A stretch of DNA of 64,000 nt from Agromyces sp. LHK192. Lineage in GTDB: Bacteria > Actinomycetota > Actinomycetes > Actinomycetales > Microbacteriaceae. Where the stretch lies: assembly GCF_004006235.1 (NCBI RefSeq), contig NZ_CP034753.1:3286001-3350000 (forward strand). The letters are read 5' to 3'. The position numbers were made by a program, and so were the translations under genes. Shown piece by piece: positions 14,996 to 37,177 of this stretch. How positions within the stretch are numbered: position 1 is the first letter of the stretch; each line of letters opens with the position of its first letter. The notes beneath the pieces are model-generated. The model saw only the letters and a list, made by a program, of their open reading frames with translations. It ran no database searches and was not told the origin of the DNA.

Positions 14996-16156
14996 TCAGG
15001 ATGCCGCGCGGGAGACCTCGGCGAGGTACGCGGTCGAACGCTCGGAGCCGATGATGCCGGGCGACATACGGTTCATCACGTAGGCGAAGGTGACCCCGCG
15101 GTCGGCGTCGGCCACCACGAGCGACCCGCCCCAACCGCCCCAGTAGGCGATCCGCCCGTCGGGCATCGCCTCGGGCGACGACGGGTTCGGCACGGCCCAG
15201 CCGAGGCCGAACCGCAGCGGGATGCCGAGCACGAGGTCGATACCGTCGGTGTGCTCGGCGAACACGCGGTCGACGGTCTCGGGCGCGAGGATCCGACGAC
15301 CGCCGGCCACCCCGCCGTTGGCGAGCACGCTGTTGAGCCGGGCCGCGCCGCGCGCGTTGCCCTGGCCCCCGGCACCGCCGATGCCCGCGGCGCGCCACTC
15401 GCGCGTCCAGGTGATCTCGGCGCCGAGTGCCGGGCCGGTGAAGGTGCGGAACGCGGGCGACTCGGGCGGCATCGCCGCGAAGTCGATCTGCGACGGCGGC
15501 GGCGGGACGACGAGGCTCACTCGCGGCTCCTCGGACTCGGGCAGGCCGAGCCAGAGGTCGGCGCTGAGCGGGTCGGCCAGCTCCTCGCGGACGAACGCAC
15601 CGAGGGTGCGCCCGTCGACCCGGCGCACGAGCTCGCCGACGAGGTGGCCGAAGTCGAGGAGGTGGTATCCCGACATGGTGCCGGCAGGCCACCACGCGGG
15701 CTGGGCCGCGAGCAGTGCCGCAGCGCGTTCGAGGTCGAGGATGGTCGCGGCGTCGACCGGCTGCGCCCACCCCGAGACGCCCGAGGTGTGCATCAACACG
15801 TGCTTGACGAGCACGCCCTCCTTGCCGGCCGCGGCGAACTCGGGCCAGTACTCCGCGACGGGCGCGTCGGGGTCGAGCAGGCCGCGGTCGACGAGCACGA
15901 GGGCGGCGAGCGCGGTCGCGGTCTTCGAGATCGACCACACGTTGGTGATGGTGTCGCGCTGCCAGGGGGCGGTGCGCTCCGGGTCGGCCCAGCCGCCCCA
16001 CAGGTCGACGACGAGGTCGTCGCCCTCGTACACGGCGACGGATGCCCCGAGCTCGTCGCCGTTCTCGACGCGACGGGCGAACTCGTCGCGGAGCCCGGCG
16101 TAGCGGTCGTCGCACGTGCCCGAGACGGCGGGTCCGGCGGTCTGGATGTCGGTCAT
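14996..16156 (-). CDS. Serine hydrolase of the beta-lactamase/EstB family
   Basis: The 386-residue protein has the penicillin-binding fold with nucleophile motif S75-I-S-K78 (in WSISKT), a Tyr motif near residue 152 (SGYHLLDFGHL) and a C-terminal WGGWGGS that takes the place of the KTG box. Such proteins are mostly esterases or lactonases, not antibiotic beta-lactamases. There is no signal peptide, so it works inside the cell. ATG 16156 is preceded by GAGGAGC; the frame stays open upstream but lacks a ribosome site. It shares a control region, with operator A, with the divergent alcohol dehydrogenase operon. I infer that it opens an ester or lactone to start the pathway. Confidence 0.8.
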   Translation of the reverse strand: MTDIQTAGPAVSGTCDDRYAGLRDEFARRVENGDELGASVAVYEGDDLVVDLWGGWADPERTAPWQRDTITNVWSISKTATALAALVLVDRGLLDPDAPVAEYWPEFAAAGKEGVLVKHVLMHTSGVSGWAQPVDAATILDLERAAALLAAQPAWWPAGTMSGYHLLDFGHLVGELVRRVDGRTLGAFVREELADPLSADLWLGLPESEEPRVSLVVPPPPSQIDFAAMPPESPAFRTFTGPALGAEITWTREWRAAGIGGAGGQGNARGAARLNSVLANGGVAGGRRILAPETVDRVFAEHTDGIDLVLGIPLRFGLGWAVPNPSSPEAMPDGRIAYWGGWGGSLVVADADRGVTFAYVMNRMSPGIIGSERSTAYLAEVSRAAS

Positions 16157-16229
16157 GCGGTGCTCCTCAGCGTCATCGGTGAGCGGGTCGAGCCGGGTGG
16201 GCGGCAGGGGTTCCGGCCTGGGTTGCACC

Positions 16230-16251
16230 AACATACCGCGCGGTCGGTATG
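16230..16251. promoter_or_regulatory. Operator A (TetR-type palindrome) between hydrolase and alcohol dehydrogenase
   Basis: Read on the minus strand the site is ATACCGACCGCGCGGTATG, an inverted repeat CATACCG/CGGTATG with 6 nt between. On the plus strand it overlaps a -10-like TATGCT (16248-16253). Three further copies lie at 23726, 33354 and 37241. ACCGACC-type palindromes are known targets of TetR regulators of fatty acid and phenylacetate metabolism (for example PfmR of Thermus). Confidence 0.7.
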
Positions 16252-16305
16252 CTTGTCACCGGTGGATTCCGACCTGACCGCCGCACTCGACGACGAGGAG
16301 GCCGC

Positions 16306-17472
16306 ATGCGCATCACCGGAGCCGTGCTCGAACGATCCGGCGCCCGGGCGCCGTTCGCGCAGAGCCGCCCGTTCACGGTCGGCGAGCTCGAGCTCGCCCC
16401 GCCGGCGCGCGGCGAGGTGCTCGTGCGCATCGAGGCCGCGGGCATCTGCCACTCCGACCTCAGCGTCGTCGACGGCAACCGCGTGCGCCCGACCCCGATG
16501 CTGCTGGGGCACGAGGCATCCGGCATCGTCGAGCAGTTCGGCGACGGCGTCGACGACCTGCCGATCGGCACCCGGGTGGTGATGACCTTCCTCCCCCGCT
16601 GCGGTGACTGCGCCGGATGCCGCACCGATGGGCGCCTCCCGTGCGAGGTCGGCACGGCTGCGAACGGCGCCGGCACGCTCGTCGGCGGCGGCATCCGACT
16701 GCACCGGGCGAAACCGGTCGACGACGCGCCGACCACCGGCACCGGCACGACCGGCGTCGAGCCGGTCCACCACCACCTCGGCGTCAGCGGGTTCGCCTCG
16801 CACGCGGTCGTGAGCCGCACGTCGGTCGTTCCCGTCGGCGACGACGTGCCGCCGGATATCGCGGCGCTCCTCGGCTGCGCGGTGCTCACCGGCGGTGGCG
16901 CCGTGGTCAACGCCGGGCGCCCGGCCCCCGGCGAGCGCGTGATCGTCGTCGGCCTCGGCGGGGTCGGCATGGCGGCCCTGCTCGTCGCCGTCGCGCTCGG
17001 GCACGAGGTGATCGGCGTCGACGCGGTGCCGGCGAAGCTCGCGCTCGCACGCGAGCTCGGGGCATCCGACGCGCGTTCGCCGCAGGACGCGATCGCCGGA
17101 AGCGACGACGGCGACGGCCCGCTGCGCGCGCCCGTCGTGATCGAGGCCGCGGGTTCGGCCCGCGCGTTCGAGACGGCGCTCGCGCTCACCGCCCCCGGCG
17201 GGACCACCGTCACCGTCGGGCTTCCGGCGCCCGACGCGCGCGCCGCGGTCTCGCCGCTGCTGCTCACGGCAGAGGCGCGAACCGTCATCGGCAGCTACCT
17301 CGGCTCCGCGGTGCCGAGCCGTGACATCCCGCGCTACGCCGACCTATGGCGAGCCGGCCGCCTGCCGCTCGAACGGCTCGTGTCCTCGCACGTGCGCCTC
17401 GACGACATCGACGCAGCGATGGACCGCCTGGCCGCCGGCACCGAACTGCGCCAGCTCATCGTCTTCGACTGA
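16306..17472 (+). CDS. Zinc-dependent alcohol dehydrogenase (MDR family)
   Basis: The 388-residue enzyme has the catalytic zinc ligands C48 (GICHSD) and H69 (GHEASG) and the structural zinc cluster C99, C102, C105, C113, followed by a Rossmann motif VGLGGVG near 217. It oxidises an alcohol to an aldehyde or ketone with NAD. The four-Cys lobe and length fit the class III-like branch. ATG 16306 follows GAGGAGG; the frame extends upstream but lacks another good ribosome site. It leads an operon with an SDR and a MaoC hydratase and lies next to operator A, so it is placed in the catabolic regulon. Substrate unknown. Confidence 0.85.
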   Translation: MRITGAVLERSGARAPFAQSRPFTVGELELAPPARGEVLVRIEAAGICHSDLSVVDGNRVRPTPMLLGHEASGIVEQFGDGVDDLPIGTRVVMTFLPRCGDCAGCRTDGRLPCEVGTAANGAGTLVGGGIRLHRAKPVDDAPTTGTGTTGVEPVHHHLGVSGFASHAVVSRTSVVPVGDDVPPDIAALLGCAVLTGGGAVVNAGRPAPGERVIVVGLGGVGMAALLVAVALGHEVIGVDAVPAKLALARELGASDARSPQDAIAGSDDGDGPLRAPVVIEAAGSARAFETALALTAPGGTTVTVGLPAPDARAAVSPLLLTAEARTVIGSYLGSAVPSRDIPRYADLWRAGRLPLERLVSSHVRLDDIDAAMDRLAAGTELRQLIVFD

Positions 17473-17544: not shown

Positions 17545-18330
17545 ATGACCGCCGCCATCCCCGCCCTGACCCCCGACCCGACCCCACGGGTCGCCATCGT
17601 CACCGGAGCCGCCCGCGGCATCGGCGCCGCCACCGCGCGCCGGCTCGCCGCCGACGGGTACGCCGTCGCCGTCGTCGACCTGCTCGAGGAGCAGGCCGTC
17701 GAGACCGCGGAAACGATCGCCGCCGAGGGCGGCCGAGCCATCGGCATCGGAGCGGATGTCTCGGACGCCGCAGCCGTCGCCGCGGCCGTCGAGCGCGTGG
17801 CATCCGAGCTCGGCGCTCCGACGATCCTGGTCAACAACGCCGGCATCCTCCGCGACAACCTGCTCTTCAAGATGAGCGAGACCGACTGGGACGCCGTCAT
17901 GGACGTGCACCTGCGCGGGGCGTTCCTGATGACCCGCGCCGTGCAGGCGCACCAGGTCGACGCGGGCTGGGGCCGCATCGTGAACCTGTCGTCGACGTCG
18001 GCGCTCGGCAATCGCGGCCAGGCGAACTACGCCGCCGCGAAGGCCGGCATGCAGGGCTTCACGAAGACCCTGGCGATCGAGCTCGGCCGCTACGGCGTCA
18101 CCGCGAACGCCGTCGCACCGGGGTTCATCGAGACCGACATGACGAAGGCGACCGCTGAGCGCATCGGCGTCGGGTTCGACGACTTCGTCGCGGCGATGGT
18201 GAAGGAGATCCCGGTGGCCCGCAGCGGCAGGCCCGAGGACGTCGCCGCCGCCGTGTCGTACTTCTGCTCGGAGGACGCCGGCTTCGTGTCGGGCCAGGTG
18301 CTGTACGTGGCGGGAGGTCCGCGCGCATGA
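17545..18330 (+). CDS. SDR-family dehydrogenase, FabG-like
   Basis: A classical 261-residue short-chain dehydrogenase: GAARGIG cofactor loop (21-27), NNAG (about 97), catalytic Ser in NLSST and Tyr/Lys in YAAAKAG (about 163/167), and a C-terminal VSGQVLYVAGG. The group reduces or oxidises 3-oxoacyl/3-hydroxyacyl thioesters. Its stop overlaps the next gene (ATGA), a MaoC hydratase, and that pairing suggests it oxidises the 3-hydroxyacyl-CoA made by the hydratase. It follows the alcohol dehydrogenase after 72 nt with an AGAGGA ribosome site. Confidence 0.87.
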   Translation: MTAAIPALTPDPTPRVAIVTGAARGIGAATARRLAADGYAVAVVDLLEEQAVETAETIAAEGGRAIGIGADVSDAAAVAAAVERVASELGAPTILVNNAGILRDNLLFKMSETDWDAVMDVHLRGAFLMTRAVQAHQVDAGWGRIVNLSSTSALGNRGQANYAAAKAGMQGFTKTLAIELGRYGVTANAVAPGFIETDMTKATAERIGVGFDDFVAAMVKEIPVARSGRPEDVAAAVSYFCSEDAGFVSGQVLYVAGGPRA

Positions 18331-18791
18331 GCGTCGACACGAGATTCGCGTCGCCCGCCGACCTGGCGGATGCCGCGGGCGCCCAGCTCGGCCCCGGCGA
18401 GTGGTTCGAGATCGACCAGTCCCGCATCGACGCGTTCGCCGAGGCGACCGAGGACCGCCAGTGGATCCACGTCGACGTCGACCGCGCGACCGCGGGTCCG
18501 TTCGGCGCGCCGATCGCGCACGGGTTCCTGACGCTGTCGCTGCTGAGCTTCCTCGCCGCGCCGTTGCTCGACGTCGGCGGGGTCGCGATGGGCGTGAACT
18601 ACGGGTTCGAGAAGGTGCGGTTCCTGCAGCCCGTGACGGTCGGCTCGCGCGTGCGGGCCGTCGGCGCGATCGGCTCGGCCGAGCGCACCCCCACCGGCGT
18701 GCGGGTCGTGCAGGACCTCACGATCGAGATCGAGGGGTCTGCGAAGCCGGCCCTGATCGCCCGGTGGGTCACCCTGCTCGTGCCGGCCTGA
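18327..18791 (+). CDS. MaoC-family (R)-specific enoyl-CoA hydratase
   Basis: The 154-residue hot-dog protein has the MaoC catalytic pair D43 and H48 (TEDRQWIHVD) and the downstream GPFGAPIAHGFLTLSLL hydratase motif. These enzymes add water to trans-2-enoyl-CoA, giving the (R)-3-hydroxyacyl-CoA. Its start overlaps the SDR stop, indicating coupling. This is the last gene of the operon and ends at a strong bidirectional terminator. Confidence 0.87.
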   Translation: MSVDTRFASPADLADAAGAQLGPGEWFEIDQSRIDAFAEATEDRQWIHVDVDRATAGPFGAPIAHGFLTLSLLSFLAAPLLDVGGVAMGVNYGFEKVRFLQPVTVGSRVRAVGAIGSAERTPTGVRVVQDLTIEIEGSAKPALIARWVTLLVPA

Positions 18792-18848: not shown

Positions 18849-20090
18849 TCAGACGCGCTCGAGCACCATCGCCATGCCCTGGCCGCCGCCGACGCACATG
18901 GTCTCGAGGCCGTAGCGGCCGCCGGTCGCGGCGAGGCCGTTGATGAGCGTCGACGTGATGCGGGCGCCGGTCATGCCGAACGGATGCCCCACCGCGATCG
19001 CGCCGCCGTGCACGTTGAGCCGCTCCTCGTCGATGCCGAGTTCGCGCGCCGACGGGATCACCTGGGCGGCGAACGCCTCGTTGATCTCGACGAGGTCGAT
19101 GTCGTCGATCGCCAGGCCCGCGCGGTCGAGCGCGCGGCGCGACGACTCGACCGGGCCGAGGCCCATGATCTCGGGCGAGAGGCCCGAGACGCCGGTCGAC
19201 ACGATGCGGGCGAGCGGCTGGAGGCCGAGTTCGTCGACGATCCGCTCCGACACGATCACCACGGCCGCGGCGCCGTCGTTGAGCGGGCAGCAGTTGCCGG
19301 CGGTGACGGTGCCGTCGGGGCGGAACACCGGGTCGAGCCCGGCGAGCGCCTCGAGCGTGACGCCGGGGCGCGGACCGTCGTCGGCCGAGACGACGGTGCC
19401 GTCGTCGAGCGTGACGGGCGTGATGTCGCTCGCCCAGAACCCGCTGGCGATCGCGGCCTCGGCGCGCTGCTGGCTCCGGGCCGCGAACGCGTCCTGGTCT
19501 TCGCGGGTGACGCCCATCAGGTCGGCGACGTTCTCGGCGGTCTGGCCCATCGCGATGTAGGGGTCGGGCAGCGCGCCGCTCTCCCTCGGGTCGCGCCAGC
19601 GACCCGCGCCGGACGGCCCCGCGACGCCGGCCGCCGCCCGCTCGTCGGCGCGGGCGATCGCGTCGGCGAAGCGCGGGTTGCGCACGTCCTGGCCGGGGAT
19701 GAAGTCCGACGAACCGCGGTCGTAGCGGCTCACCATCTCGACCCCGGCGGACACGAACACGTCGCCCTCGCCGGCCTTGATGGCGTGGAACGCCATGCGC
19801 GTCGTCTGCAGGCTCGACGAGCAGTAGCGGTTGACGGTCGCGCCGGGAACGGTGTCGAGCCCGAGCAGCACGGCGACGATGCGGGCGAGGTTCATGCCCT
19901 GCTCGCCGGCGGGCTGTCCGGTGCCGAGGAGCAGGTCGTCGATCCGGGCGGGATCGAGGGCGGGCACCTGGTCGAGCGCGGCGGCTACCATGCGCGCGGC
20001 GAGGTCGTCGCCGCGCACGTCGACGAGCGAGCCCTTGCGTGCCCGCCCGATCGGCGAGCGGGCGGTGGCGACGATGAAGGCTTCTGGCAT
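18849..20090 (-). CDS. Acetyl-CoA acyltransferase (thiolase)
   Basis: The 413-residue thiolase has all the catalytic residues: nucleophile C90 in NRYCSSSLQ, H369 in GGAIAVGHPFGMTG and C399 in MCVGGGQG. It cleaves a 3-ketoacyl-CoA with CoA, releasing acetyl-CoA (or propionyl-CoA), the last step of beta-oxidation. The ATG at 20090 (MPEAFIVATARSP) has GAGAGG 8 nt upstream; an ATG at 20099 is too close to that site. It follows the acyl-CoA dehydrogenase by 30 nt in one operon that starts at the palindrome near 21400. Confidence 0.9.
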   Translation of the reverse strand: MPEAFIVATARSPIGRARKGSLVDVRGDDLAARMVAAALDQVPALDPARIDDLLLGTGQPAGEQGMNLARIVAVLLGLDTVPGATVNRYCSSSLQTTRMAFHAIKAGEGDVFVSAGVEMVSRYDRGSSDFIPGQDVRNPRFADAIARADERAAAGVAGPSGAGRWRDPRESGALPDPYIAMGQTAENVADLMGVTREDQDAFAARSQQRAEAAIASGFWASDITPVTLDDGTVVSADDGPRPGVTLEALAGLDPVFRPDGTVTAGNCCPLNDGAAAVVIVSERIVDELGLQPLARIVSTGVSGLSPEIMGLGPVESSRRALDRAGLAIDDIDLVEINEAFAAQVIPSARELGIDEERLNVHGGAIAVGHPFGMTGARITSTLINGLAATGGRYGLETMCVGGGQGMAMVLERV

Positions 20091-20120
20091 TCGGGGCATC
20101 CTCTCGGGTGGTCGGTTCGC

Positions 20121-21353
20121 TCAGTGGAACGCGGCGATGCCGGTGATCTTGCGGCCGACGATGAGCGTGTTCATGTCGTACGTGCCCTCGAACGTGTAGA
20201 CCGCCTCGGCGTCGGCGAAGAACCTCGCGACGCCGTGGTCGAGCTGGATGCCGTTGCCGCCGAGGATCTCGCGGCACCACGCGACGACCTCGCGCATGCG
20301 CGCGGTGACGAACGCCTTCGCCATCGCGGAGTGGTGGTCCTTCTGCTCGCCGGCGTCCTGCATCTCGGAGACGCGCACGCACAGCGCGATCGACGCCGTG
20401 ATGTTCGAGAGGCTGTTCGAGAGCTTCTCCTGCACCAGCTGGTACGACGCGATCGGCTTGCCGAACTGCACGCGCTCCTTGGCGTACTTCAGCGCAGCTT
20501 CGTACGCACCGACGGCGACGCCGAGCGCCTGCCAGGCGACCTCGGCGCGCGTGAGGCGCAGCACGATCGCGACGTCGCGGAACCCTCGGATGCCGGGGAG
20601 CCGGTCGCTCTCGGGCACGACGACGTCCTCGAGGACGATGTCGGCGTTCTCGACGCCGCGCAGGGACTGCTTGCGTTCGATCTTCGTCGCGGTGAATCCG
20701 GATGCCGGCTGCCGGACGAGGAACCCCTTGACCTCGTCGTCGGCGGTGTCGCGCGCCCAGATGACGACGACGTCGGCGAAGGTGGCGTTGCCGATCCAGC
20801 GCTTCGCGCCGTTGAGCACCCACTCGTCGGTGCCGTCGGCCGCGGTGCGGCGGGTCGCGGTGGTCTCGAGGCCGCGTGCGGTGTCGGAGCCGTGGCCGGG
20901 TTCGGTGAGCCCGAACGCGCCGATGAGCTCGCCGCGCGCCATCCGGGGCATCCACTCGGCCTTCTGCTCGGGCGAACCGCCGACGTCGATGGCGTTCATC
21001 GCGAGTCCGGAGTGGACACCGATGAAGGTCGCGGTCGACGGGTCGACGCGGGCGATCTCGAGCGCGATCCAGCCGCGGTAGACGCAGCTGTTCTCGTAGT
21101 GCGCGTAGTCGGGGAACGCGGAGGCGAACAACCCGAGCTCGGCGATGCGGGGGATGAGGTGCCGGGGGCTTCGGGCCTGCTCCCACAGCTCATCGGCGTT
21201 CGGGCCGATCTCGGTCTCGAGGAAGTGCCGGATGCGGCGGATCGCGTCCTGCTCGACGGGGGTGAACTTCTCCTGGAAGGCGTAGAAGTCGGCGTCGAGC
21301 AGGTCGGCGGGGGTGCCCTCGGTCTCGGTCGAGGGCGGGGCGGTGAGCGTCAT
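20121..21353 (-). CDS. Acyl-CoA dehydrogenase, glutaryl-CoA dehydrogenase-like
   Basis: The 410-residue flavoenzyme has the FAD loop GAFGLTEPGHGSD, the RVQFGKPIASYQLVQ dimer motif and, near the C-terminus, TFEGTYDMNTLIVGRKITG with the catalytic Glu at about 389. The EGTYD..ALIxGRxITG arrangement is that of glutaryl-CoA and related short-chain dehydrogenases. It makes an enoyl-CoA from an acyl-CoA; whether it also decarboxylates is not visible. ATG 21353 follows GGAGAAG. It heads an operon with the thiolase and is divergent from a QsdR-like regulator across a 26-bp palindrome. Confidence 0.87.
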   Translation of the reverse strand: MTLTAPPSTETEGTPADLLDADFYAFQEKFTPVEQDAIRRIRHFLETEIGPNADELWEQARSPRHLIPRIAELGLFASAFPDYAHYENSCVYRGWIALEIARVDPSTATFIGVHSGLAMNAIDVGGSPEQKAEWMPRMARGELIGAFGLTEPGHGSDTARGLETTATRRTAADGTDEWVLNGAKRWIGNATFADVVVIWARDTADDEVKGFLVRQPASGFTATKIERKQSLRGVENADIVLEDVVVPESDRLPGIRGFRDVAIVLRLTRAEVAWQALGVAVGAYEAALKYAKERVQFGKPIASYQLVQEKLSNSLSNITASIALCVRVSEMQDAGEQKDHHSAMAKAFVTARMREVVAWCREILGGNGIQLDHGVARFFADAEAVYTFEGTYDMNTLIVGRKITGIAAFH

Positions 21354-21385: not shown

Positions 21386-21411
21386 ATGCAACATTTTCGA
21401 GAATGTTGCAT
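21386..21411. promoter_or_regulatory. 26-bp palindrome, operator candidate for the QsdR-like regulator
   Basis: The arms ATGCAACATT (21386-21395) and AATGTTGCAT (21402-21411) are exact complements around TTCGAG. It lies in the 81-nt gap between the divergent dehydrogenase and TetR genes. A related half, GTTGCAACATTTC, lies just beside operator C at about 33378. Confidence 0.75.
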
Positions 21412-21434: not shown

Positions 21435-22106
21435 ATGGCCCGCATGCCGAGCACCGCCGCCGCCAGCGCACCCGACCGGACGAACGCGCCGCCCACGATC
21501 GCGACGATCGGGCTCGACGCCGCCCCGTCGTGGCTGAGCGAACGCCTCGAGACCCACCCCGACGCGCTCCGCGCGTTCAAGCTCGCCCGCGAGTCGTTCA
21601 TCGCCGGCCAGCGCATCGACATGGGTGCACTCGCACTGCGCCTCGGCGTCGACCGCACGTCGCTGTTCCGCTGGGTCGGCAACCGCGACGCGCTGCTCAG
21701 CGAGGTGCTGTGGTCGCTCGCCGTGCCGACGCTCGACCAGGCCGAGGACGCGGCGCGCGACCTGGCCGGCGCCGAGCGCGTCGCCGCGATCCTCACGAGC
21801 TTCGTGCACGACCTCATCGCCGCCGAGTACTTCCGGCACTTCCTGCGGCGCGAGCCCGCCCGCGCCCTGCGGCTGCTGACCACCAAGGAGAGCGAGATCC
21901 AGCGGCGCTACGTCGCGACCGCGGAGTGGCTCGTGCACCGCGACCTCGGCGACGAGCCGATGGGCGGTGTCATCGACCCGCACGAGCTCGCGTACCTGCT
22001 CGTGCGCATCTCGGAGTCGTTCACCTACGCAGACCTCATCACCGGCGACCAGCCGAGCACCGAACGCGCGCGCGTCGCGTTCCGCGTGCTGCTGCGGGTG
22101 GGCTGA
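21435..22106 (+). CDS. TetR-family regulator, QsdR-like
   Basis: The 223-residue protein has an unusual N-terminal helix-turn-helix (about 58-90, ALRLGVDRTSLFRWVGNRDA) that I associate with QsdR-type TetR proteins. In Rhodococcus, QsdR senses lactone ring-opening products and controls a quorum-quenching/gamma-lactone pathway. The assignment is from memory of the family and moderately sure. ATG 21435 follows GGAAGCGGG. It is divergent from the dehydrogenase/thiolase operon, and the gap contains a 26-bp palindrome. A thioesterase gene follows after 3 nt and is surely cotranscribed. Confidence 0.75.
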   Translation: MARMPSTAAASAPDRTNAPPTIATIGLDAAPSWLSERLETHPDALRAFKLARESFIAGQRIDMGALALRLGVDRTSLFRWVGNRDALLSEVLWSLAVPTLDQAEDAARDLAGAERVAAILTSFVHDLIAAEYFRHFLRREPARALRLLTTKESEIQRRYVATAEWLVHRDLGDEPMGGVIDPHELAYLLVRISESFTYADLITGDQPSTERARVAFRVLLRVG

Positions 22107-22109: not shown

Positions 22110-22559
22110 ATGCCCGAAGTTCCGCCCGCCGCGCCCGCCGCAGCGCCGTCGTACCCCGTGCGCGTGCCGTTCGGCACCAGGTGGCGAGACAACGACCAGT
22201 ACGGGCACGTGAACAACGTCGTCTACTACGAGGCGATGGACACCGCGGTGAACTCGTGGATGATCCGCAACGCCGGGCTCGACCCGCAGGGCGACGGGCC
22301 GATCGCGCTCGTCGTCGCGTCGAACTGCCGGTACCTCGCGGCGGCGTCGTTCCCCGAGCCGCTCGAGGTCGGCATCTCGGTCGGCAGGCTCGGGAACACG
22401 AGCATCACGTGGGCGCTCGGCATCCTGCGCTCAGGTGAGACCGAGCCGATCGCGACGGGTGAGTTCGTGCACGTCTTCGTGGATGCCGCGACACGTCGCC
22501 CGACCCCCGTGCCCGAAGCGGTGCGCGCAGCGCTCGACGCCGAGCTGCTCTCGTCCTGA
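22110..22559 (+). CDS. Acyl-CoA thioesterase (4HBT hot-dog family)
   Basis: The 149-residue protein carries the 4HBT signature RWRDNDQYGHVNNVVYYE, with active-site Asp27 and the GHVNN turn. It hydrolyses acyl-CoA to free acid and CoA. It starts 3 nt after the QsdR-like gene, so it belongs to that operon and may release CoA from dead-end intermediates of the neighbouring pathway. A hairpin terminator follows. Confidence 0.85.
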   Translation: MPEVPPAAPAAAPSYPVRVPFGTRWRDNDQYGHVNNVVYYEAMDTAVNSWMIRNAGLDPQGDGPIALVVASNCRYLAAASFPEPLEVGISVGRLGNTSITWALGILRSGETEPIATGEFVHVFVDAATRRPTPVPEAVRAALDAELLSS

Positions 22560-29612: not shown

Positions 29613-30894
29613 GATCACCTCTCTGGTTGGGTTGGAACGGATTGCAGGTCGGGCAGGTCGGGGGCGGGCCGGTCGGGGCGGGCCGGTCGGGATCGGATGC
29701 CTCGGGCGGGTCGGATGCCTCGGGAACGTCGGATGCCGATGCGGCCGCCCTGCGCGCCCGGCGGCGACCGCGGGCGCGGCCCACCGCGCCCGCGATGCCG
29801 CCCGGCCACACGGCCATCACGACGATGAGCAGCGCCCCGAAGACGAGCACGGGGAGGTTGCCGCTGAGGCGCTGCTCGAGGTCGGCGGGCAGGTCGAACG
29901 CGGAGGTCGCGGTGCCGATGATCCACGGCAGCAGCACGACGATCACGGCGCCGAGGAGCGCGCCGCCGAGGCTGCCGAGTCCGCCGACGACGACGGCCAC
30001 GACCAGCAGCAGCGAGTACGCGAGTGTGTACGCGCCGGGGTTCACCGACTGCGTCGTGAAGCACAGGAGGGCCCCGCCGGCGCCGGCCGCGAGCGAGCTG
30101 ACGGCGAACGCCTGCACCTTCACGCGCCGGGTCGGCACGCCCGCGAGCCGGGCCGCGGTCTCGTCGCCGTGCACCGCGCGCATCCGCAGGCCCAGCCGGC
30201 CGCGCCGCAGCAGGGCGAGCCAGGTCGTGATGACCGCGGTGACGAGGATCGCCACCCAGGCCTGCCACTGCTCGACGACGATGAGCAGCTCGAGGAACTC
30301 GGGCACGCCGTCGTACGGGATCTGCACGCCCTGGTCGCCGCGGAACACCGAGGAGAACACGCTCGTGAACGCGGGGAGGGCGATCACGAGCGCGAGTGTG
30401 ACGCCCGCGAGGTACGGTCCGCGCAGGCGCGCCCCCGCGAGGCCGAGCAGCAGCCCCAGCGCGCCCGATGCCGCGATCGCGCCGACGAAGCCGAGCAGGA
30501 ATCGCGGGAGCCCGTCGATGCCTGCCTCGGTCGCGGCGTTCGCGGTGAGCGCGTAGCCGTAGCCGCCCGCGGCCATGAGGGCCGCGTGCCCGAGCGAGAG
30601 CTGGCCGCTCAGGCCGATCAGCAGCGTCAGCCCGCCGGTCGCGCAGAACGTCGCCGCGACCAGCGCGAGCTGGTAGTTGCGGTACGGGTCGAGCAGGAAC
30701 GTGCCGCCGATCGCGAGCAGGGTCAGCAACAGGGCGATGAGCAGGAGGCGGCCGCGGCGGGGTGCCGGAGCGGCGGACGCGGCGTCATGGCGGGCGGGCG
30801 CGGCGGCAGCGGTAGCGCGGGCGGCAACGGCGGCGGCGCCTTCGGACGCCGTAGACGCGGCGGACGCCGGACGCGGGTTCGTCTGCGTGCTCAT
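28975..30894 (-). CDS. livM: Liv-type ABC permease LivM with an unusually long open frame into livJ
   Basis: Residues 1-45 are a low-complexity Ala-rich head; about 48-370 form a LivM permease (GGLTLLIGLSGQLSLGHAAL, RMRAVHGDETAARLAGV, LGSLGGALLGAV). A charged tail RRRARR then runs into repeats (VPEASDPPEASDP) and the frame stays open for 637 nt inside livJ, to a stop at 28975. LivM proteins normally end near residue 370-420. In another frame a TGA at 29615 overlaps the livJ ribosome site, just where a normal stop is expected, so a one-base indel in the G/C runs near 29650-29690 is likely (true mutation or sequencing error). The biological gene probably ends near 29615. Start ATG 30894 overlaps the livH stop (ATGA). 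Confidence 0.7.
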   Translation of the reverse strand: MSTQTNPRPASAASTASEGAAAVAARATAAAAPARHDAASAAPAPRRGRLLLIALLLTLLAIGGTFLLDPYRNYQLALVAATFCATGGLTLLIGLSGQLSLGHAALMAAGGYGYALTANAATEAGIDGLPRFLLGFVGAIAASGALGLLLGLAGARLRGPYLAGVTLALVIALPAFTSVFSSVFRGDQGVQIPYDGVPEFLELLIVVEQWQAWVAILVTAVITTWLALLRRGRLGLRMRAVHGDETAARLAGVPTRRVKVQAFAVSSLAAGAGGALLCFTTQSVNPGAYTLAYSLLLVVAVVVGGLGSLGGALLGAVIVVLLPWIIGTATSAFDLPADLEQRLSGNLPVLVFGALLIVVMAVWPGGIAGAVGRARGRRRARRAAASASDVPEASDPPEASDPDRPAPTGPPPTCPTCNPFQPNQRGDHVPTHHPPAHRRARGRRRSSRGARPRGVQLARRPVRLRGGGRSRHHRRHRDDRHPHAAHRPGRGRLRVDLRGDEGVLRLRQRPGRHQRPHDRVPREGRRLQPGDDADRRARTRAGGRGLRDPQRPRHADAHLRARLPQPERGARPVRGVRLDELEPARGVPVDVRVQRRLRRRGRRARAVRAGRVPGQEALRAGPGRRLRLGVPRGRRAGRR

Positions 30895-31769
30895 GCCGTG
30901 CGCGCCTCTCGCACCTGGAAGATGCCGCCAGGCCGCACGAGCAGCACCGCGACCAGCAGCACGAGCACGGCGATCGGCGCGATCGTCGAGCCGAGGTATC
31001 CGGTCACGAGGCTCATCAGCACGCCGACGCCGAGTCCGCCGATCAGGGCGCCGGGCGCGGAGTCGAGCCCGCCGACGACGGCGACCGTGAACGCGTAGAC
31101 GAACAGCAGGTCGGTCGAGTGCGGCGTGAGGCCGAGCTCGGTGGGCACGAGCAGCATCGCGGCGAGGGCGGCCACCGCCGACGCGAGCACCCAGCCGAGC
31201 GTGAGCATGCGCGGCACGCGAACGCCCAGCAGCCGCGACACCTCGGGGGCGAGCGCCGACGCGCGCAACTGGAGGCCGAGCGTCGTCTTCGTGAACAGCA
31301 GCGCGAGGCCGCCCATGACGACGAGCGCGACGCCGAGCACGAACAGGTCGTACGGCGAGAGCACCGGCACGCCGCCGATGACGATCGGCGTCTGGTCGAA
31401 CGGAGCCCGCATCGGCAGGTGGTTCTGACCGAACAGGATGCCGAGCAGCGACTGCAGCACCATCACGAGTCCGATCGCGATGATCACGCCCGCGAGCGGC
31501 GAGCCGGTCGGCGCGAATCGCATGACGCCGCGTTCGACGCCGACGCCGATGAGTCCGCCGGCGATGATCGCCGAGGCGAAGCCGATCCAGTACGAGCCGG
31601 TCAGACCGGTGACGGCGAACGCGACGTAGCTGGCGACGACCGCCATCGCGCCCTGCGCGAAGTTCACGATGCGTGCGGCGCGCCAGATGATCACGAGCGA
31701 CAGGGCGAACAGGGCGAAGATCGCGCCGCGCGCGAGCCCGGTGGCGAGGAGGAAGAGGAGTCGGTCCAT
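30891..31769 (-). CDS. livH: Liv-type ABC permease LivH
   Basis: The 292-residue membrane protein has the LivH pattern: GLARGAIFALFALSLVIIW at the start, RIVNFAQGAMAVVASYVA, and GGLDSAPGALIGGLGVG with the ATPase-contacting loop. Its start overlaps the stop of the upstream livF gene and its stop overlaps livM. It forms the channel together with LivM. The ligand is not determined by the permease. Confidence 0.88.
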   Translation of the reverse strand: MDRLLFLLATGLARGAIFALFALSLVIIWRAARIVNFAQGAMAVVASYVAFAVTGLTGSYWIGFASAIIAGGLIGVGVERGVMRFAPTGSPLAGVIIAIGLVMVLQSLLGILFGQNHLPMRAPFDQTPIVIGGVPVLSPYDLFVLGVALVVMGGLALLFTKTTLGLQLRASALAPEVSRLLGVRVPRMLTLGWVLASAVAALAAMLLVPTELGLTPHSTDLLFVYAFTVAVVGGLDSAPGALIGGLGVGVLMSLVTGYLGSTIAPIAVLVLLVAVLLVRPGGIFQVREARTA

Positions 31770-32485
31770 CAGAATCCCAGGTAGGCGTGGCGAAGGGCGG
31801 GGTCGGCGGCGAGGTCGGATGCCGGTGCATCGGCGACGATCTCGCCGAGCCCGAGCACGATGCCGCGGTCGGCGATCGAGAGGGCGCTGGTCACGTTCTG
31901 CTCGGCGAGCAGCACGGTGAGTCCCGTGCGGTCGGCGGTGTCGCGCAGCACGCCCATGAGCTGGGCGACGACGAGCGGCGCGAGGCCGAGCGACGGCTCG
32001 TCGAGCAGCAGCACGCGCGGCTCGGCGACGAGGGCGCGGGCGAGTGCGAGCATCTGGCGCTCGCCGCCCGAGAGCTGGTGCCCGAGGCTGCGCCGGCGAC
32101 GGTCGAGCGGTTCGAACAGCTCGTACATCGCGGCGACGGCGCGTTCACGGGCCGCGCCGCGGTACCGCCAGAGGGCACCGAGGCGCAGGTTCTCGTCGAC
32201 CGTGAGCTCGGCGACGACGCTGCGGCCCTCGGGCACCTGCGCGAGCCCTGAGCGGGCTCGGTCCTCGACGGCGACGCCGCCGAGGTCGCGTCCGGCGAGT
32301 CGGATGCTCCCCGCGCGAGGTGCGAGGAGTCCCGCGACCGTGCGCATGAGGGTCGTCTTGCCCGCGCCGTTCGCGCCGAGCAACGCGACGACGGCGCCCT
32401 CGTCGATCGAGAGGCTCATGCCGTCGAGCACGGGTGCGCCGACGTAGCCGACGGTGACGCGGTCGAGTTCGAGGATGCCACTCAC
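31769..32485 (-). CDS. livF: Liv-type ABC ATPase LivF
   Basis: The 238-residue ATPase has Walker A GANGAGKTT, signature LSGGERQ, Walker B VLLLDEPSLGL and the LivF feature QVPEGRSVVAELTVDENL. Length is normal. The start is GTG 32485, which overlaps the livG stop (GTGA), so the two ATPases are coupled. Confidence 0.9.
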   Translation of the reverse strand: MSGILELDRVTVGYVGAPVLDGMSLSIDEGAVVALLGANGAGKTTLMRTVAGLLAPRAGSIRLAGRDLGGVAVEDRARSGLAQVPEGRSVVAELTVDENLRLGALWRYRGAARERAVAAMYELFEPLDRRRRSLGHQLSGGERQMLALARALVAEPRVLLLDEPSLGLAPLVVAQLMGVLRDTADRTGLTVLLAEQNVTSALSIADRGIVLGLGEIVADAPASDLAADPALRHAYLGF

Positions 32486-33312
32486 GATGCGGCCCTCGCC
32501 TCGTGTCCCGAGCGGCTCGCCTGGTTCGCCTCGCTCGCCTGGCTCGCCTGCACCCCGAGGTAGGCGGCCTCGACGGCGGGGTCGGCCTGCACCTCGGCGG
32601 GCGCGCCGCGCGCGATGACGCGGCCGAAGTCGAGCACGACGATGCGGTCGGCCAGGCCCATCACGAAGTCGACGTGGTGCTCGACCAGGAGCACGGAGCA
32701 TCCGCCCGCGGCGACGCGACGCACCACCCCGGCGAGTGCGTCGATGTCGTCGGATCCGAGGCCGCCCGCCGGCTCGTCGAGGAGCAGCAGCGACGGCTCG
32801 GTGACCAGGGCCCGGGCGAGTGCGACGCGCTTGCGAACCGGATAGGGCAGCTCGTCGACGTGCCGCGTGGCGACATCGGCGAGGTCGAGCTCGGCGAGCG
32901 TCGCGAGCGCGCGATGCACGGCCTCGCCCGAGGGCACGCGGCCGAGCGGCACGAGCAGGTGCTCGAGCACGGTGAGCCCCTCGAAGAGGCCGAGGCCCTG
33001 CAGCGTCCGGGAGACGCCCGCCCGGGTCAGGCCGACCGCCGATCGCGGGGCGGGAGCCCCGTCGAGGCGGATGCTGCCCGCGCGGCGGCGCACGAGCGAG
33101 CAGATCGCGTTGAACGCCGTGGTCTTGCCCGCGCCGTTCGGCCCGATGAGCGCCACGGTCTCGCCGTGGGCCACGTCGAACGAGACGTCGTCGAGCGCGG
33201 TCAGGCCGCCGAACGCGACGGTCAGGCCGGAGACCTCGAGGCGCGGCGGGGCGCCGAGGACGCTCGGCGGGGCAGCCGTCTGGTCGGCGTGGTGGGGGAT
33301 CGGATCGGGCAT
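32482..33312 (-). CDS. livG: Liv-type ABC ATPase LivG
   Basis: The 276-residue ATPase has Walker A GPNGAGKTT and Walker B LLLLDEPAGGL; the signature is the weak LPYPVRKR, common in LivG. A Gln/Ala/Ser tail (QASQASEANQAS) closes it. ATG 33312 follows AGAGG; a GTG at 33318 is an alternative. It is the first gene of the livGFHM-J operon, and operator C lies 41 nt upstream, tying the importer to the catabolic genes. Confidence 0.88.
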   Translation of the reverse strand: MPDPIPHHADQTAAPPSVLGAPPRLEVSGLTVAFGGLTALDDVSFDVAHGETVALIGPNGAGKTTAFNAICSLVRRRAGSIRLDGAPAPRSAVGLTRAGVSRTLQGLGLFEGLTVLEHLLVPLGRVPSGEAVHRALATLAELDLADVATRHVDELPYPVRKRVALARALVTEPSLLLLDEPAGGLGSDDIDALAGVVRRVAAGGCSVLLVEHHVDFVMGLADRIVVLDFGRVIARGAPAEVQADPAVEAAYLGVQASQASEANQASRSGHEARAAS

Positions 33313-33353
33313 CGGCACCTCTTCGTGTCGGAGTGCTGCTCACTGTACCCGAG

Positions 33354-33374
33354 AAACCGACCAGACGGTATGTT
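33354..33374. promoter_or_regulatory. Operator C upstream of the liv operon
   Basis: AAACCGACCAGACGGTATG (33354-33372) is identical over 19 bases to operator D read on the minus strand. For the leftward livG promoter it lies near the -35, with a -10-like TACAGT on the minus strand just downstream. A half-site like the 26-bp palindrome at 21386 adjoins it. Confidence 0.7.
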
Positions 33375-33563
33375 GGCGTTGCAACATTTCGGGCACGCCC
33401 TTCGATCGCGCGTTCGCGGAGGCGAAGGACCCGCGCGAGCGGGGAGACACGAGCGGAGGAGAACTCCGCGACGGGAGGCCTCCTTCCGCGCGAACGCACC
33501 TCCGCTCGTGCGAACCACCTCCCCTCCGCCGCGCCCCGCCGATGCATCCGCACCCGGGCACGA

Positions 33564-33967: not shown

Positions 33968-34723
33968 TCAGCGATGCGCGATCGCCGTCACCATGCCGCC
34001 GTCGACGACGAACTCGGCGCCCGACGTGAACGCCGAGGCATCCGACGCGAGGAAGACGATGGTGCCCGCGACATCCGCCGGATCTCCCGGTCGGCCGAGC
34101 GGGATGTCGAGCCGATCCGGGTCGATCCGCGTCGTCATCTCCGTGCGGATGAACCCCGGATGCACCGAGTTCACGCGGATGCCGCTCGGTCCGAGCTCGA
34201 CCGCGAGCCCCTTGGTGAGCCCGCGCACCCCGAACTTCGACGCGGTGTACCCGTGCAGGTGCGGGCTGCCGCGCAGGCCCTCGACCGACGAGACGTTGAT
34301 GATCGAGCCGCGGCCGGCGGCCTTCATGGCCGGCACCACCGCGCGGCAGCCGAGGAACGTGCCCGTGAGGTTCACGCCGATCACGGCGTCCCACTTCGCG
34401 AGCGTGAAGTGCTCGATCGGCGCCGAGTTCGCGATGCCCGCGTTGTTGACGAGCACGTCGACCGCGCCGAACGCCTCGAGCGTTCCGGCCACGACCGCCG
34501 CCCACCCGTCCTCGTCGGTCACGTCGAGGTGCTCGAACCGCGCCCTATCGCCGAGCTCCGCGGCGAGCGCGGAACCCGGCTCGTCGAGCACGTCGGCGAC
34601 GACGACGGATGCCCCGGCCGCGTGCAGCGCCCGCACGTAGGCCTCGCCGATGCCGCGGGCGCCGCCCGTCACGATCGCGACGCGGCCGTCGAGGCTGAAG
34701 TCGGGCAGGCCCGTGCCCGTCAC
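33968..34723 (-). CDS. SDR-family oxidoreductase
   Basis: The 251-residue classical SDR has GGARGIG (about 19-25), NNAG, catalytic Ser in NVSS and the YTASKFG Tyr/Lys motif, and a C-terminal VDGGM. The start is GTG 34723, overlapping the quinone oxidoreductase stop. It is last in the four-gene operon under operator D. A role as a hydroxyacyl or 4-oxo/4-hydroxy acid dehydrogenase is plausible from context only. Confidence 0.85.
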   Translation of the reverse strand: MTGTGLPDFSLDGRVAIVTGGARGIGEAYVRALHAAGASVVVADVLDEPGSALAAELGDRARFEHLDVTDEDGWAAVVAGTLEAFGAVDVLVNNAGIANSAPIEHFTLAKWDAVIGVNLTGTFLGCRAVVPAMKAAGRGSIINVSSVEGLRGSPHLHGYTASKFGVRGLTKGLAVELGPSGIRVNSVHPGFIRTEMTTRIDPDRLDIPLGRPGDPADVAGTIVFLASDASAFTSGAEFVVDGGMVTAIAHR

Positions 34724-35817
34724 GACGCGACCCGCACGACGATGCGCCCCGTGGTGGCGCCGCCCGCGAGTCGCTGCACGGCCGCGGGCGCGTCGGCGAA
34801 CGGCACGACGTCGACGACTGGCGCGATCGCACCCTCGGCGGCGAGCCGCACGAGCTCGGCATGCGCCTCGTCGACGAGGTCGGGCCGCTGCTGCTGGTAG
34901 AGCGCCCAGTGCAGGCCGAGCACCGAGTAGTTCTTGATGAGCGCGTGGTTCGCCGCGACCTGCTGGATCTCGCCGCCCGCGAACCCGACGACGACGATGC
35001 GGCCCTCGAGCGCGATGCACTTCGTCGAGGCCGTGTAGGCGTCGCCGCCGACCGGGTCGAACACGACGTCGACGCCGTGGCCGCCGGTCGCCTCCTTCAC
35101 GGATGCCACGAGGTCGTCTCGTCCGCGGACGAGCACCACCTCGGCACCGGCCTGTCGGGCGACCTCGGCCTTCGCCTCGCTGCCGACCACGCCGATGACG
35201 CGGGCGCCGGCGGCCACGCCGAGTTGCACCGCCGCGACGCCGACACCGCCGGCCGCGGCATGCACGAGCAGCCATTCGCCGGCTTGCAGGGCAGCCCGCC
35301 GATGCAGGCCGAACCAGGCGGTCTGGTACGCGATGGTGAGCGCGGCCGCGGCCTCGTCGTCCAGGGCGTCCGGCGCGAGCCGCACGGCCTCGGCCGGCAG
35401 CACGGCGTACTCCGAGAGCACGCCGATCTCCGACCCGACAACGCGGTCGCCGACGGCGAGGGCGCGCGCCGAGGCATCCGCGCCGGGGTCCGAAGCGGCA
35501 TGCGCACCCGCGTACGCCGAGGCATCCGTGCCGCCCGAGGCATCCGTCGCGCTCGCGGGCGACGCGCCCACCGCGACGACCTCGCCGCTCAGCTCGATGC
35601 CCGGCACGAAGGGCGGCTCGGGCCGCACCTGGTACTGGCCGCGCGCGAGCAACACGTCGGGGAAGTTGATCGCGACCGCGCTCGTGCGCACGAGCACCTG
35701 GCCCGGCCCAGGGGCCGGAACCGGCACGTCGTGGAGTTCGAGCACCTCCTCGGGCTCTCCGGTGCGCGTCACGCGCCACGCGCGCATGGTCTCGGGAACG
35801 ACGGGGGGTGTGGTCAT
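34720..35817 (-). CDS. Zinc-independent quinone oxidoreductase-like MDR enzyme
   Basis: The 365-residue MDR protein has the quinone-reductase pattern: VAINFPDVLLARGQYQ, AAGGVGVAAVQLG (cofactor site) and VVFDPVGGDAY, with no zinc ligands. It probably reduces an activated double bond or quinone with NADPH. An insertion of some 35 residues (about 85-120) of Ala/Ser/Asp/Gly low complexity, rich in DAS from GCATCC words, interrupts the catalytic domain near the substrate loop. ATG 35817 overlaps the TetR stop (ATGA). Confidence 0.85.
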   Translation of the reverse strand: MTTPPVVPETMRAWRVTRTGEPEEVLELHDVPVPAPGPGQVLVRTSAVAINFPDVLLARGQYQVRPEPPFVPGIELSGEVVAVGASPASATDASGGTDASAYAGAHAASDPGADASARALAVGDRVVGSEIGVLSEYAVLPAEAVRLAPDALDDEAAAALTIAYQTAWFGLHRRAALQAGEWLLVHAAAGGVGVAAVQLGVAAGARVIGVVGSEAKAEVARQAGAEVVLVRGRDDLVASVKEATGGHGVDVVFDPVGGDAYTASTKCIALEGRIVVVGFAGGEIQQVAANHALIKNYSVLGLHWALYQQQRPDLVDEAHAELVRLAAEGAIAPVVDVVPFADAPAAVQRLAGGATTGRIVVRVAS

Positions 35818-36395
35818 CCGGTGCTCCTGATGCTGGTGAGGAAGAGGTCGGTGATCTGGCTGGCGACGAGCGACTTCGACTCGGGGCCCTCGGGTGAGTA
35901 CCAGTGCGAGAGGTAGTGCACGTCGCTGAAGAAGTGGGCGATGAGCACCGGGTGCGGGATGTCGGTGCGGAACAGCCCCTGGTCCTGGCCGCGTTCGATC
36001 AGGGCCGCGAAGGTGTCGTGGTAGTCGCGACGTCGGCGCGTGACCTCCTGCTGGCGAGGCGCGGTCAGCATGTGCATGCTGCGGAAGAACACGGTGCCCT
36101 CGGGCAGGAAGTCGATCGACGTCTCGATGACGTCGACGCACACCGTGCGCAGCACCTCGTCGACTTCGCCGCCGTGCGAGATGATCTCGTCGAGCCGCGA
36201 CTTCTGCAGCGTCAGCATGCGGTCGTAGATCGCGAAGAGCAGGTCGTCCTTCGACTCGAAGTAGTGGTACATCGCGCCCTTGGTGACCCCGGCGGCCTCC
36301 ACGATCTGCTGGACACTGGTGTTGGCATAGCCCTGGCTGGCGAACAGGTCGACCGCTGCACGCGTGACCTCGTCGGCGACGTTGACGTCCTTCAT
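35814..36395 (-). CDS. TetR-family regulator, candidate master of operators A-D
   Basis: The 193-residue protein has a TetR helix-turn-helix with VEAAGVTKGAMYHYFESKDDLL (about 33-54), and a C-terminal domain with HFFSDVHYLSHWYSPEG of the kind seen in regulators of lipid and aromatic catabolism. ATG 36395 is chosen as the first Met after the SDR stop; the frame is open further up. It lies in an operon directly controlled by operator D, so autoregulation is likely, and the same site precedes three other catabolic promoters. An acyl-CoA or hydroxyacyl-CoA is the probable inducer by analogy. Confidence 0.83.
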   Translation of the reverse strand: MKDVNVADEVTRAAVDLFASQGYANTSVQQIVEAAGVTKGAMYHYFESKDDLLFAIYDRMLTLQKSRLDEIISHGGEVDEVLRTVCVDVIETSIDFLPEGTVFFRSMHMLTAPRQQEVTRRRRDYHDTFAALIERGQDQGLFRTDIPHPVLIAHFFSDVHYLSHWYSPEGPESKSLVASQITDLFLTSIRSTG

Positions 36396-36406
36396 GCATC
36401 CATCCT

Positions 36407-37177
36407 TCACCCGGCAGGGCGCATCAGCGCGCCACCGTCGATCGGCATCGTCTGACCGGTGATCCACGCGGCGTCGTCGGAGAGCAGGAACGCGACGGGC
36501 CCGGCGACGTCGTCGGGCTCGCCGAGGCGGGCGAGCGGGTACTCGGCAGCGACCTCGGCCTCACGGCCCTCGTACAGGGCGGTCGCGAACGCGGTCTTGA
36601 TGACGGCGGGCGCGACCGCGTTGACCCGGATGCCGGGCGCCAGCTCGTGCGCGAGCTGCATGGTCAGGTTCACGACCGCGGCCTTCGAGATGCCGTAGAA
36701 CGCGATGCCGGGGCTGGCGGCGAGCGCCGAGATCGACGACAGGTTCACGACCGAGGTGGTCAAGCCGGCGCCGACGGCGTCACGCGTCCACTCGAGCGTC
36801 GCGAAGACGTTGACCTCGAGGATCTTGCGGGCCGCCGCGAGGTCGACGTCGCGGAGCGGACCGTACACGGGGTTGATGCCGGCGTTGTTCACGAGGTGGT
36901 CGAGGCGGCCGTGCGTCTCGGCGATGTGGGCGAAGACCGCGGCGCGGTGCTCCGGGTCGTCGGCCTTGCCCGCGACACCGCTCGCGCGGGCCGGGTCTGC
37001 TCCGGTCCCGTCTGCTCCGAGCTCGCGCAGCCCGGCGACGGCCGCGTCGAGCGAGTCCTGCTTGCGTCCGGTGAGGACGACGGATGCCCCCTCCGCCACG
37101 AGCCGCCGCGCCACGGCGAACCCGATGCCGCGGCTGCCGCCGGTGATCAGGGCGACGCTGCCCTCGAATCGCTGCAC
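36407..37177 (-). CDS. SDR-family oxidoreductase
   Basis: A 256-residue SDR with GGSRGIG (about 13-19), NNAG, NLSSISA, Tyr/Lys in YGISKAAV and a C-terminal DGGALM. The start is GTG 37177 with a GGAGGAG ribosome site. It is the first gene of the operon SDR-TetR-MDR-SDR and lies 64 nt after operator D. The substrate is unknown. Confidence 0.85.
   Translation of the reverse strand: MQRFEGSVALITGGSRGIGFAVARRLVAEGASVVLTGRKQDSLDAAVAGLRELGADGTGADPARASGVAGKADDPEHRAAVFAHIAETHGRLDHLVNNAGINPVYGPLRDVDLAAARKILEVNVFATLEWTRDAVGAGLTTSVVNLSSISALAASPGIAFYGISKAAVVNLTMQLAHELAPGIRVNAVAPAVIKTAFATALYEGREAEVAAEYPLARLGEPDDVAGPVAFLLSDDAAWITGQTMPIDGGALMRPAG

Follow-up and report, generated by a model that had tools for sequence, protein, structure and literature searches.

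A putative PfmR-type regulon for 4-hydroxyacyl-CoA catabolism with a Liv-type importer in Agromyces sp. LHK192

In a stretch of 64,000 nucleotides from Agromyces sp. LHK192 (contig NZ_CP034753.1, positions 3,286,001 to 3,350,000; hereafter the window, whose internal coordinates are used throughout), an island of genes encodes, among others, an APH-type kinase, an acyl-CoA dehydrogenase (ACAD) of the ACAD10/11 type, an acyl-CoA ligase, a Liv-type ABC importer and two TetR regulators. We interpret this island as a PfmR-type catabolic regulon for 4-hydroxyacyl-coenzyme A (CoA), a prediction made from sequence to which we assign a probability of roughly 0.8. The interpretation rests on a shared operator, on synteny and on catalytic residues. 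The module is real, conserved and co-regulated, and its composition and its link to PfmR are new as far as open-licence PMC text shows: among the matches listed, no paper brought a Liv importer together with PfmR and ACAD10/11-type genes, in line with the initial annotation, which held the combination of importer and shared operator to be undescribed. The words phosphotransferase, PfmR and ACCGG do not occur in the text of the paper on the Sulfolobus FadR cluster (PMC6449355).

The shared operator and its conservation

The genome is a single contig of 4.09 Mb, which the whole-genome operator scans cover. At one mismatch or less the word CATACCGNCNGGTCGGT was found at four sites, all within a 21 kb cluster, with matches at window positions 16232, 23728, 33356 and 37243. 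At two mismatches more sites appeared, scattered over the genome, and the mirror control gave 5 matches, so only the four sites were accepted. They stand at four promoters: the divergent promoter of the hydrolase and the ADH-SDR-MaoC genes (operator 1, 16232-16251, CATACCGCGCGGTCGGTATG), the promoter of the kinase-ACAD-ligase genes (operator 2, 23725-23744), that of the liv operon (operator 3, 33353-33372) and that of the SDR-TetR-MDR-SDR operon (operator 4, 37243-37262), for which autoregulation is proposed. When the window was scanned at up to three mismatches, 11 matches were obtained; they fall at 8 places, as three are seen on either strand, and shuffled controls gave 3.6 on average and 10 at most.

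Occurrence of the word was then related to that of the kinase in 199 genomes of the family, 16 of them kinase-bearing at E <= 1e-60 and 183 not, with up to ten candidates scored per genome. Exact copies were found in 12 of the 16 kinase-bearing genomes (17 sites) and in none of the 183 others; one of the 17 copies (G080, 1136238) lies far from the kinase of its genome. Among 15 family relatives carrying the kinase, fetched for closer comparison, 12 have the operator by the cluster at two mismatches or less.

A wider set consisted of the best 80 of 544 confirmed loci, which were found via the kinase and reach at most 10 kb on each side of it, so that counts of genes far from the kinase are lower bounds. 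At two mismatches or less, 166 operator sites were present in 69 of these loci, the control with the reversed word yielding 4 sites spread over 4 loci. Most of the sites (142, as opposed to 24) fall within 400 bp upstream of a recognised gene, namely the kinase in 53 loci, livG in 32, ADH in 19, SDR3 in 15, the dehydrogenase first labelled glutaryl-CoA dehydrogenase-like in 14, the 4HBT thioesterase in 14, TetR_C_24 in 13, and a few others. The operator precedes livG in all 32 loci that carry liv within 10 kb, which supports the suggested co-regulation with the importer.

Gene content across the 80 loci was as follows: ACAD11 in 74, TetR_C_24 in 55, MaoC in 44, SDR1 in 43, SDR3 in 34, SDR2, MDR and 4HBT in 33 each, each of the five liv genes, the ligase, the thiolase and the glutaryl-CoA dehydrogenase-like enzyme in 32, ADH in 25, the QsdR-like gene in 21, the hydrolase in 3 and NIPSNAP in 1, an Agromyces (L053). 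The 32 liv-bearing loci belong to Agromyces, Microbacterium, Protaetiibacter, Isoptericola, Krasilnikoviella, Promicromonospora, Cellulomonas, Cellulosimicrobium, Glycomyces, Nesterenkonia, Phytomonospora, Actinomadura (with a more distant set) and one metagenome-assembled genome (MAG); the other 48, many from Streptomyces and its relatives, are without liv or consist only of a kinase-ACAD11-TetR core. Near the kinase of the 15 fetched relatives we found ACAD11 in 15, MaoC with SDR1 in 13, TetR_C_24 in 9, liv in 6 (a distant liv set occurs also in G180), and the dehydrogenase-thiolase pair and the hydrolase in 5 each.

Two single loci deserve a separate mention. That of Actinomadura sp. BRA 177 (L127) has five operator sites, kinase, MaoC, TetR and the more distant liv set, with no ACAD11 match. 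In one relative (G076) the kinase (C1:1959344-1960359) aligns as two pieces in different frames and may therefore be broken or mis-sequenced.

The kinase-dehydrogenase core and the proposed pathway

Genes were called from a Pfam scan of 29 chosen open reading frames (ORFs), whose start positions were then corrected; every gene class named in the initial annotation was recovered close to where it had been placed. The ACAD10/11-type dehydrogenase (24976-26289, +) matches the ACAD11 structures in the PDB at 422-444 bits (2wbi, 444). Its match to the putative ACAD 4hr3 is at 422 bits, and all further ACADs score 135 bits or less. ACAD10/11 and LvaC are distinguished by a catalytic aspartate, D753 in mouse ACAD11, and by R626, H634 and R637, which bind the 4-phosphate; R631 is common to ACADs (PMC12440821). 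In pairwise alignment the window enzyme has all five residues: D395 is the equivalent of D753, R268, H276 and R279 are those of R626, H634 and R637, and R273 is that of R631. A residue census of 96 loci, comprising the 80 kinase-found loci, the 15 fetched relatives and the window, gave an ACAD11 match in 90 and all five residues in 89 of these, the remaining protein (L121) being cut off by a contig end. The neighbouring dehydrogenase of the island (20121-21353, -) has the usual catalytic glutamate instead of aspartate. No second ACAD11-type enzyme was seen in the genome, where the next match is at 150 bits and 39%.

The kinase (23879-24976, +; its start is probably 23879) has by sequence an APH fold with the catalytic HGD aspartate, and its HGD, N and D residues are kept in all 96 loci. 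Its PDB matches are 9o56 (195 bits), 3dxp (176) and the ACAD11 kinase domains 8v3v and 8v3u (161 and 157), to which it is close; the following match falls to 45 bits. Two further strong APH genes were considered as members of the system; no ACAD11 match is present in the 3.7 kb around either of them. Published work reports that no electron acceptor has to be added for ACAD10/11 to work and that bacterial relatives are able to take the place of ACAD10 domains (PMC11342911). From the residues, the scores and these published roles, the kinase and ACAD steps are inferred with good support, and ACAD10/11-type chemistry very likely lies at the core of the island. The phosphorylate-then-eliminate sequence on 4-hydroxyacyl-CoA put forward initially is thus backed by the five residues kept in 89 of 90 proteins. 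Of 296 genomes sampled across the phylum, 89 have an ACAD11-type enzyme at E <= 1e-130, which indicates that the enzyme is common and that the full island is a subset.

In the pathway that we propose, the TetR_C_24 regulator (35814-36395, -; PF17932, 80 bits) would act as a PfmR-type repressor, bound to the operator ACCGNCNGGTCGGT at the four promoters until an acyl-type ligand releases it. The Liv system, judged by its family, would import a carboxylic acid, and the acyl-CoA ligase (26331-27956, +; PF00501, 300 bits) would convert it to the CoA ester. The kinase would phosphorylate the C4 hydroxyl of 4-hydroxyacyl-CoA, and the ACAD11-type flavoenzyme, given its residues, would turn 4-phosphoacyl-CoA into enoyl-CoA. 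One round of beta-oxidation would be completed by the MaoC protein (18327-18791, +) as enoyl-CoA hydratase, by the FabG-like SDR1 (17545-18330, +) as 3-hydroxyacyl-CoA dehydrogenase and by the thiolase (18849-20099, -; NCBIfam NF005890, 715 bits against a cut-off of 580), while the neighbouring dehydrogenase may serve further rounds; the beta-oxidation gene set claimed at the outset agrees with the sequence. As a guess, the class I/III-like zinc alcohol dehydrogenase (ADH; 16306-17472, +), the PIG3-like MDR oxidoreductase (34720-35817, -) and the other SDRs (SDR2, 33968-34723, -; SDR3, 36407-37177, -) might convert 4-oxo, 4-hydroxy or unsaturated forms into one another ahead of the kinase.

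The MDR and ADH genes also invite a reading in which the island clears 4-hydroxyalkenals and the corresponding acids arising from lipid peroxidation, the MDR removing the double bond, the ADH dealing with the aldehyde and the kinase and ACAD with the 4-hydroxyl. The MDR has weak matches to leukotriene- and 2-alkenal-type reductase models, and 4-hydroxy acids derived from 4-hydroxynonenal have been discussed as ACAD10/11 substrates (PMC12440821). The same MDR lies below every listed curated cut-off, however, no aldehyde dehydrogenase was seen among the island ORFs scanned, and a dedicated importer would suit food better than self-made damage; we therefore consider this explanation improbable.

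The importer is encoded by livG (32482-33318, -), livF (31769-32485, -), livH (30891-31769, -), livM (29790-30894, -, end approximate) and livK (28320-29612, -), the last encoding a lipoprotein-type binding protein (PF13458). Its nearest solved relative is 4n03 (86 bits), which we take to be a fatty-acid-binding protein, and Cys28 is invariant in 21 aligned orthologs. The livM frame (28975-30894, -) has no stop before livK and continues inside it to 28975, so that either the two genes overlap over a long stretch or the region contains a minor anomaly of sequence or frame.

Relation to the Thermus PfmR regulon and other known systems

The closest likeness, which the initial annotation does not mention, was found in Thermus thermophilus HB8, where the operon TTHB023-TTHB014 encodes PfmR, two acyl-CoA dehydrogenases, SDRs, MaoC, a ligase and a phosphotransferase, and where PfmR binds the site CCTACCGACCGGTCGG at 0.3 nM and controls also an unlinked thiolase (PMC7022988). 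When pfmR is lost, expression of the phosphotransferase gene and of the dehydrogenase gene next to it goes up at an adjusted p of about 0.02 (PMC7022988). Both systems have a TetR_C_24 regulator (in Thermus PfmR, TTHB023) and the operator core ACCGACCGGTCGGT; the Thermus operon is autoregulated, as is proposed for the operon behind operator 4, and the Thermus regulon likewise comprises two SDRs, MaoC, a PaaI thioesterase, a ligase, a kinase, an ACAD, a PF00144 fragment and the unlinked thiolase. The predicted site TACCGACCGNTNGGTN stands before both the operon and the regulator in the window, and its core is found exactly upstream of Thermus pfmR.

At the protein level, the kinase-linked dehydrogenase of Thermus is 40% identical to the window enzyme and has all five ACAD11 residues; the kinases are 32% identical and the ligases 35% over 155 amino acids. 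MaoC, thioesterase and hydrolase gave no blastp match to Thermus at 1e-5 and agree by class alone. The window TetR_C_24 protein is 28% identical to PfmR (75 bits); PfmR itself, which corresponds to PDB 3vpr (407 bits over full length), scores 124 bits on PF17932, and the window protein matches 3dcf at 84 bits, 2iai at 65 and 3vpr at 63. Some differences are evident: as annotated, the Thermus operon is without Liv importer, ADH and MDR, its hydrolase (176 amino acids) and ligase (314 amino acids) look truncated, and both its SDRs match SDR2 best. Beside the Thermus kinase lie a DUF6285 gene and a histidine phosphatase gene. No member of DUF6285, the family to which the kinase partner LvaB probably belongs, was found in the genome of the window. 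Because operator, TetR_C_24, gene classes and ACAD residues agree, the island appears to be an actinobacterial PfmR-type regulon enlarged by a Liv importer. The Thermus regulon, in our interpretation, would likewise serve 4-hydroxyacyl-CoA.

Judged by its published description, the Lva operon of Pseudomonas putida (LvaA-G) resembles the island in having a kinase, an ACAD with catalytic Asp, an SDR and a CoA ligase acting on 4-hydroxyvaleryl-CoA (PMC6692424, PMC11342911, PMC12440821). It relies on the sigma54 regulator LvaR and an ActP-type carrier, whereas the island has TetR and Liv; thiolase, MaoC, ADH and MDR are features of the island and not of the Lva operon. A pathway for levulinate or another 4-oxo acid, with an SDR reducing 4-oxoacyl-CoA to 4-hydroxyacyl-CoA ahead of kinase and ACAD, could be imagined on this model, as the regulon holds three SDRs, an ADH and an MDR and as LvaD, an SDR-family oxidoreductase, performs the reduction in Pseudomonas (PMC6692424). 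Since neither an ActP-type carrier nor sigma54 LvaR was among the 29 ORFs scanned, and the additional dehydrogenase and the thiolase suggest a chain longer than C5, we hold this substrate to be somewhat unlikely. Mammalian ACAD10 and ACAD11 join kinase and ACAD with the same catalytic and phosphate-binding residues, while the window has two separate proteins, encoded in an operon with a ligase and near an importer and a regulator.

Several observations weigh against the assignment as a PfmR-type 4-hydroxyacyl-CoA regulon. In Thermus the remaining genes of the operon rise less surely on loss of pfmR (p 0.07-0.17; PMC7022988), and kinase loci on plasmids of Deinococcus actinosclerus and R. erythropolis are without the operator, as are 11 of the 80 loci at two mismatches or less. 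Near the kinase the operator is missing in three of the 15 relatives: two (G130 and G180) have no site and the third (G066) has a single one 10 kb away. The word with one mismatch occurs also in kinase-free genomes, and with some match at up to one mismatch in 53 of the 199 family genomes single-mismatch sites alone are not specific. Neither liv nor a ligase of the island kind lies within 10 kb in 48 of the 80 loci, so that importer and ligase are not universal partners, and in six loci (L085, L107, L117, L127, L130 and L131, the last beginning near a contig end) the kinase has no ACAD11 match. Hydroxyl positions other than C4 are also compatible with the evidence. Finally, 9o56, the best PDB match of the kinase, was named an aminoglycoside phosphotransferase by its depositors.

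This name, like the Pfam APH family, would suit an aminoglycoside or choline-type kinase in a cluster for ordinary fatty-acid or phenylacetate catabolism, and the published account of PfmR indeed links its regulon to fatty acids and, following Agari et al., to phenylacetate (PMC7022988). We nevertheless judge this highly improbable: viomycin, capreomycin, hygromycin and APH(3') kinases score 20-40 bits, compared with 157-161 for the ACAD11 kinase domains, the kinase is accompanied by an ACAD11-type enzyme in 74 of the 80 loci and in all 15 fetched relatives, and no phenylacetate genes were found among the 29 ORFs scanned.

A second operator, the lactone question and the meaning of the island

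The general acyl-CoA dehydrogenase (20121-21353) and the thiolase diverge from a QsdR-like TetR (TetR_C_36; 21435-22106, +; PF18598, 136 bits) and a 4HBT thioesterase (22110-22559, +), and by position the QsdR-like TetR would control the dehydrogenase-thiolase pair and the thioesterase. This promoter carries a different perfect palindrome, TGCAACATTTTCGAGAATGTTGCA (21387-21410), the proposed operator of the QsdR-like TetR, which occurs once in the genome at up to three mismatches. As it stands there instead of CATACCGNCNGGTCGGT, two operators have to be assumed and not one; the initial proposal of a shared operator thus holds, above chance, for four promoters and fails for this one. The glutaryl-CoA dehydrogenase label given earlier to 20121-21353 was abandoned, the corresponding model reaching 156 bits against a cut-off of 470; the best NCBIfam model, 'FadE', gives 435 bits, below its own cut-off of 600. 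By eye, a half-site resembling the palindrome (GTTGCAACATTTC) was noticed at 33374-33390, beside operator 3, where it is a possible second control upstream of liv.

In 38 loci with a dehydrogenase of this type, the QsdR-like gene stands no more than 300 bp away in 24 and is absent or more than 13 kb away in the other 14. The palindrome is poorly conserved, being found in 4 of the 24 (the window, G079, L053 and L082). The PfmR-type operator at two mismatches or less stands at the dehydrogenase-thiolase genes in none of the 24 and in 13 of the 14; the fourteenth (L062) has an exact operator at the gene start, outside the stretch first tested. That the operator is found where the QsdR-like gene is absent or remote suggests that the dehydrogenase-thiolase step belongs to the same pathway. 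It should be noted that the 14 loci are ten from Glycomyces, three from Promicromonospora and one from a MAG on a short contig, so the swap may represent only two or three events.

The only PDB match of the QsdR-like TetR at E <= 0.001 is 4za6 (54 bits), which is QsdR, a regulator responding to gamma-lactone rings (PMC6262395). The relationship to the qsd operon of Rhodococcus erythropolis consists in a related TetR of PF18598; the window protein is distant and has its own palindrome, and no qsdA/qsdC-type arrangement is seen. Orthology with QsdR was rejected on neighbourhood and because no PF02126 (QsdA-type) lactonase was found in the genome. The gene is also absent or remote in the 14 of 38 loci described above. 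Lactone entry had been attributed to the PF00144 serine hydrolase (14996-16156, -; 225 bits on a longer ORF), with SxxK at residue 75 and no signal peptide by eye. A gamma-lactone pathway, with this hydrolase opening the ring, the QsdR-like TetR responding to the lactone and kinase and ACAD receiving the 4-hydroxy acid, draws on the match to QsdR, on the position of the hydrolase under operator 1 and on the PF00144 fragment of the Thermus operon. The hydrolase, however, is an optional member (5 of the 15 relatives, 3 of the 80 loci, and no match in 36 kb around the otherwise full island of G149), and its best PDB relative is 7y3z, a carboxylesterase hydrolysing the aryloxyphenoxypropionate ester fenoxaprop-P-ethyl (483 bits). 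With the missing PF02126 protein and the 54 bits to QsdR, these data speak against the entry step claimed at first; the case for lactones is weak, its two supports being an esterase that is optional and a regulator distantly related to QsdR, and we consider such a pathway rather unlikely.

Further features were noted in and around the island. Between thioesterase and kinase lie a NIPSNAP ORF (22659-22964, -) and a 103-amino-acid ORF (23126-23437, -) that matches no NCBIfam model. Between the convergent ligase and livK (28170-28291), a perfect hairpin of 14 bp and imperfect GCCCCGGG-type repeats make up a terminator-like region. About five copies of a 19-bp tandem unit (GAAGTCGCACGCGCAGGCC-like; 37327-37421) occupy the 5' end of an MFS frame (37324-38877), whose gene start is for this reason probably further in. 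Adjoining the island on its other side, 13082-14977 (+) encodes a large protein in which an adhesive domain of the ice-binding-like kind is combined with two DUF5979 stretches.

Reading the island as a PfmR-type regulon for 4-hydroxyacyl-CoA joins three strands published separately, namely the bacterial and mammalian kinase-ACAD chemistry on 4-hydroxyacyl-CoA, the PfmR operator as mapped by experiment and an actinobacterial island whose roughly 20 genes include those of an ABC importer. This reading assigns PfmR-type regulators a testable function and ligand class, makes the operator word a genome marker of the pathway and points to genes that may degrade lactones, levulinate or oxylipins in organisms other than proteobacteria. 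More tentatively, and with a little less than an even chance in our view, PfmR-type TetRs from Thermus to Actinobacteria may serve specifically to sense 4-hydroxy- or 4-phosphoacyl-CoA; the Thermus regulon would then have been misassigned to phenylacetate, several actinobacterial orders would have added a Liv-type ABC importer for a 4-hydroxy or 4-oxo acid, and the dehydrogenase-thiolase step would have been handed between two alternative TetRs.

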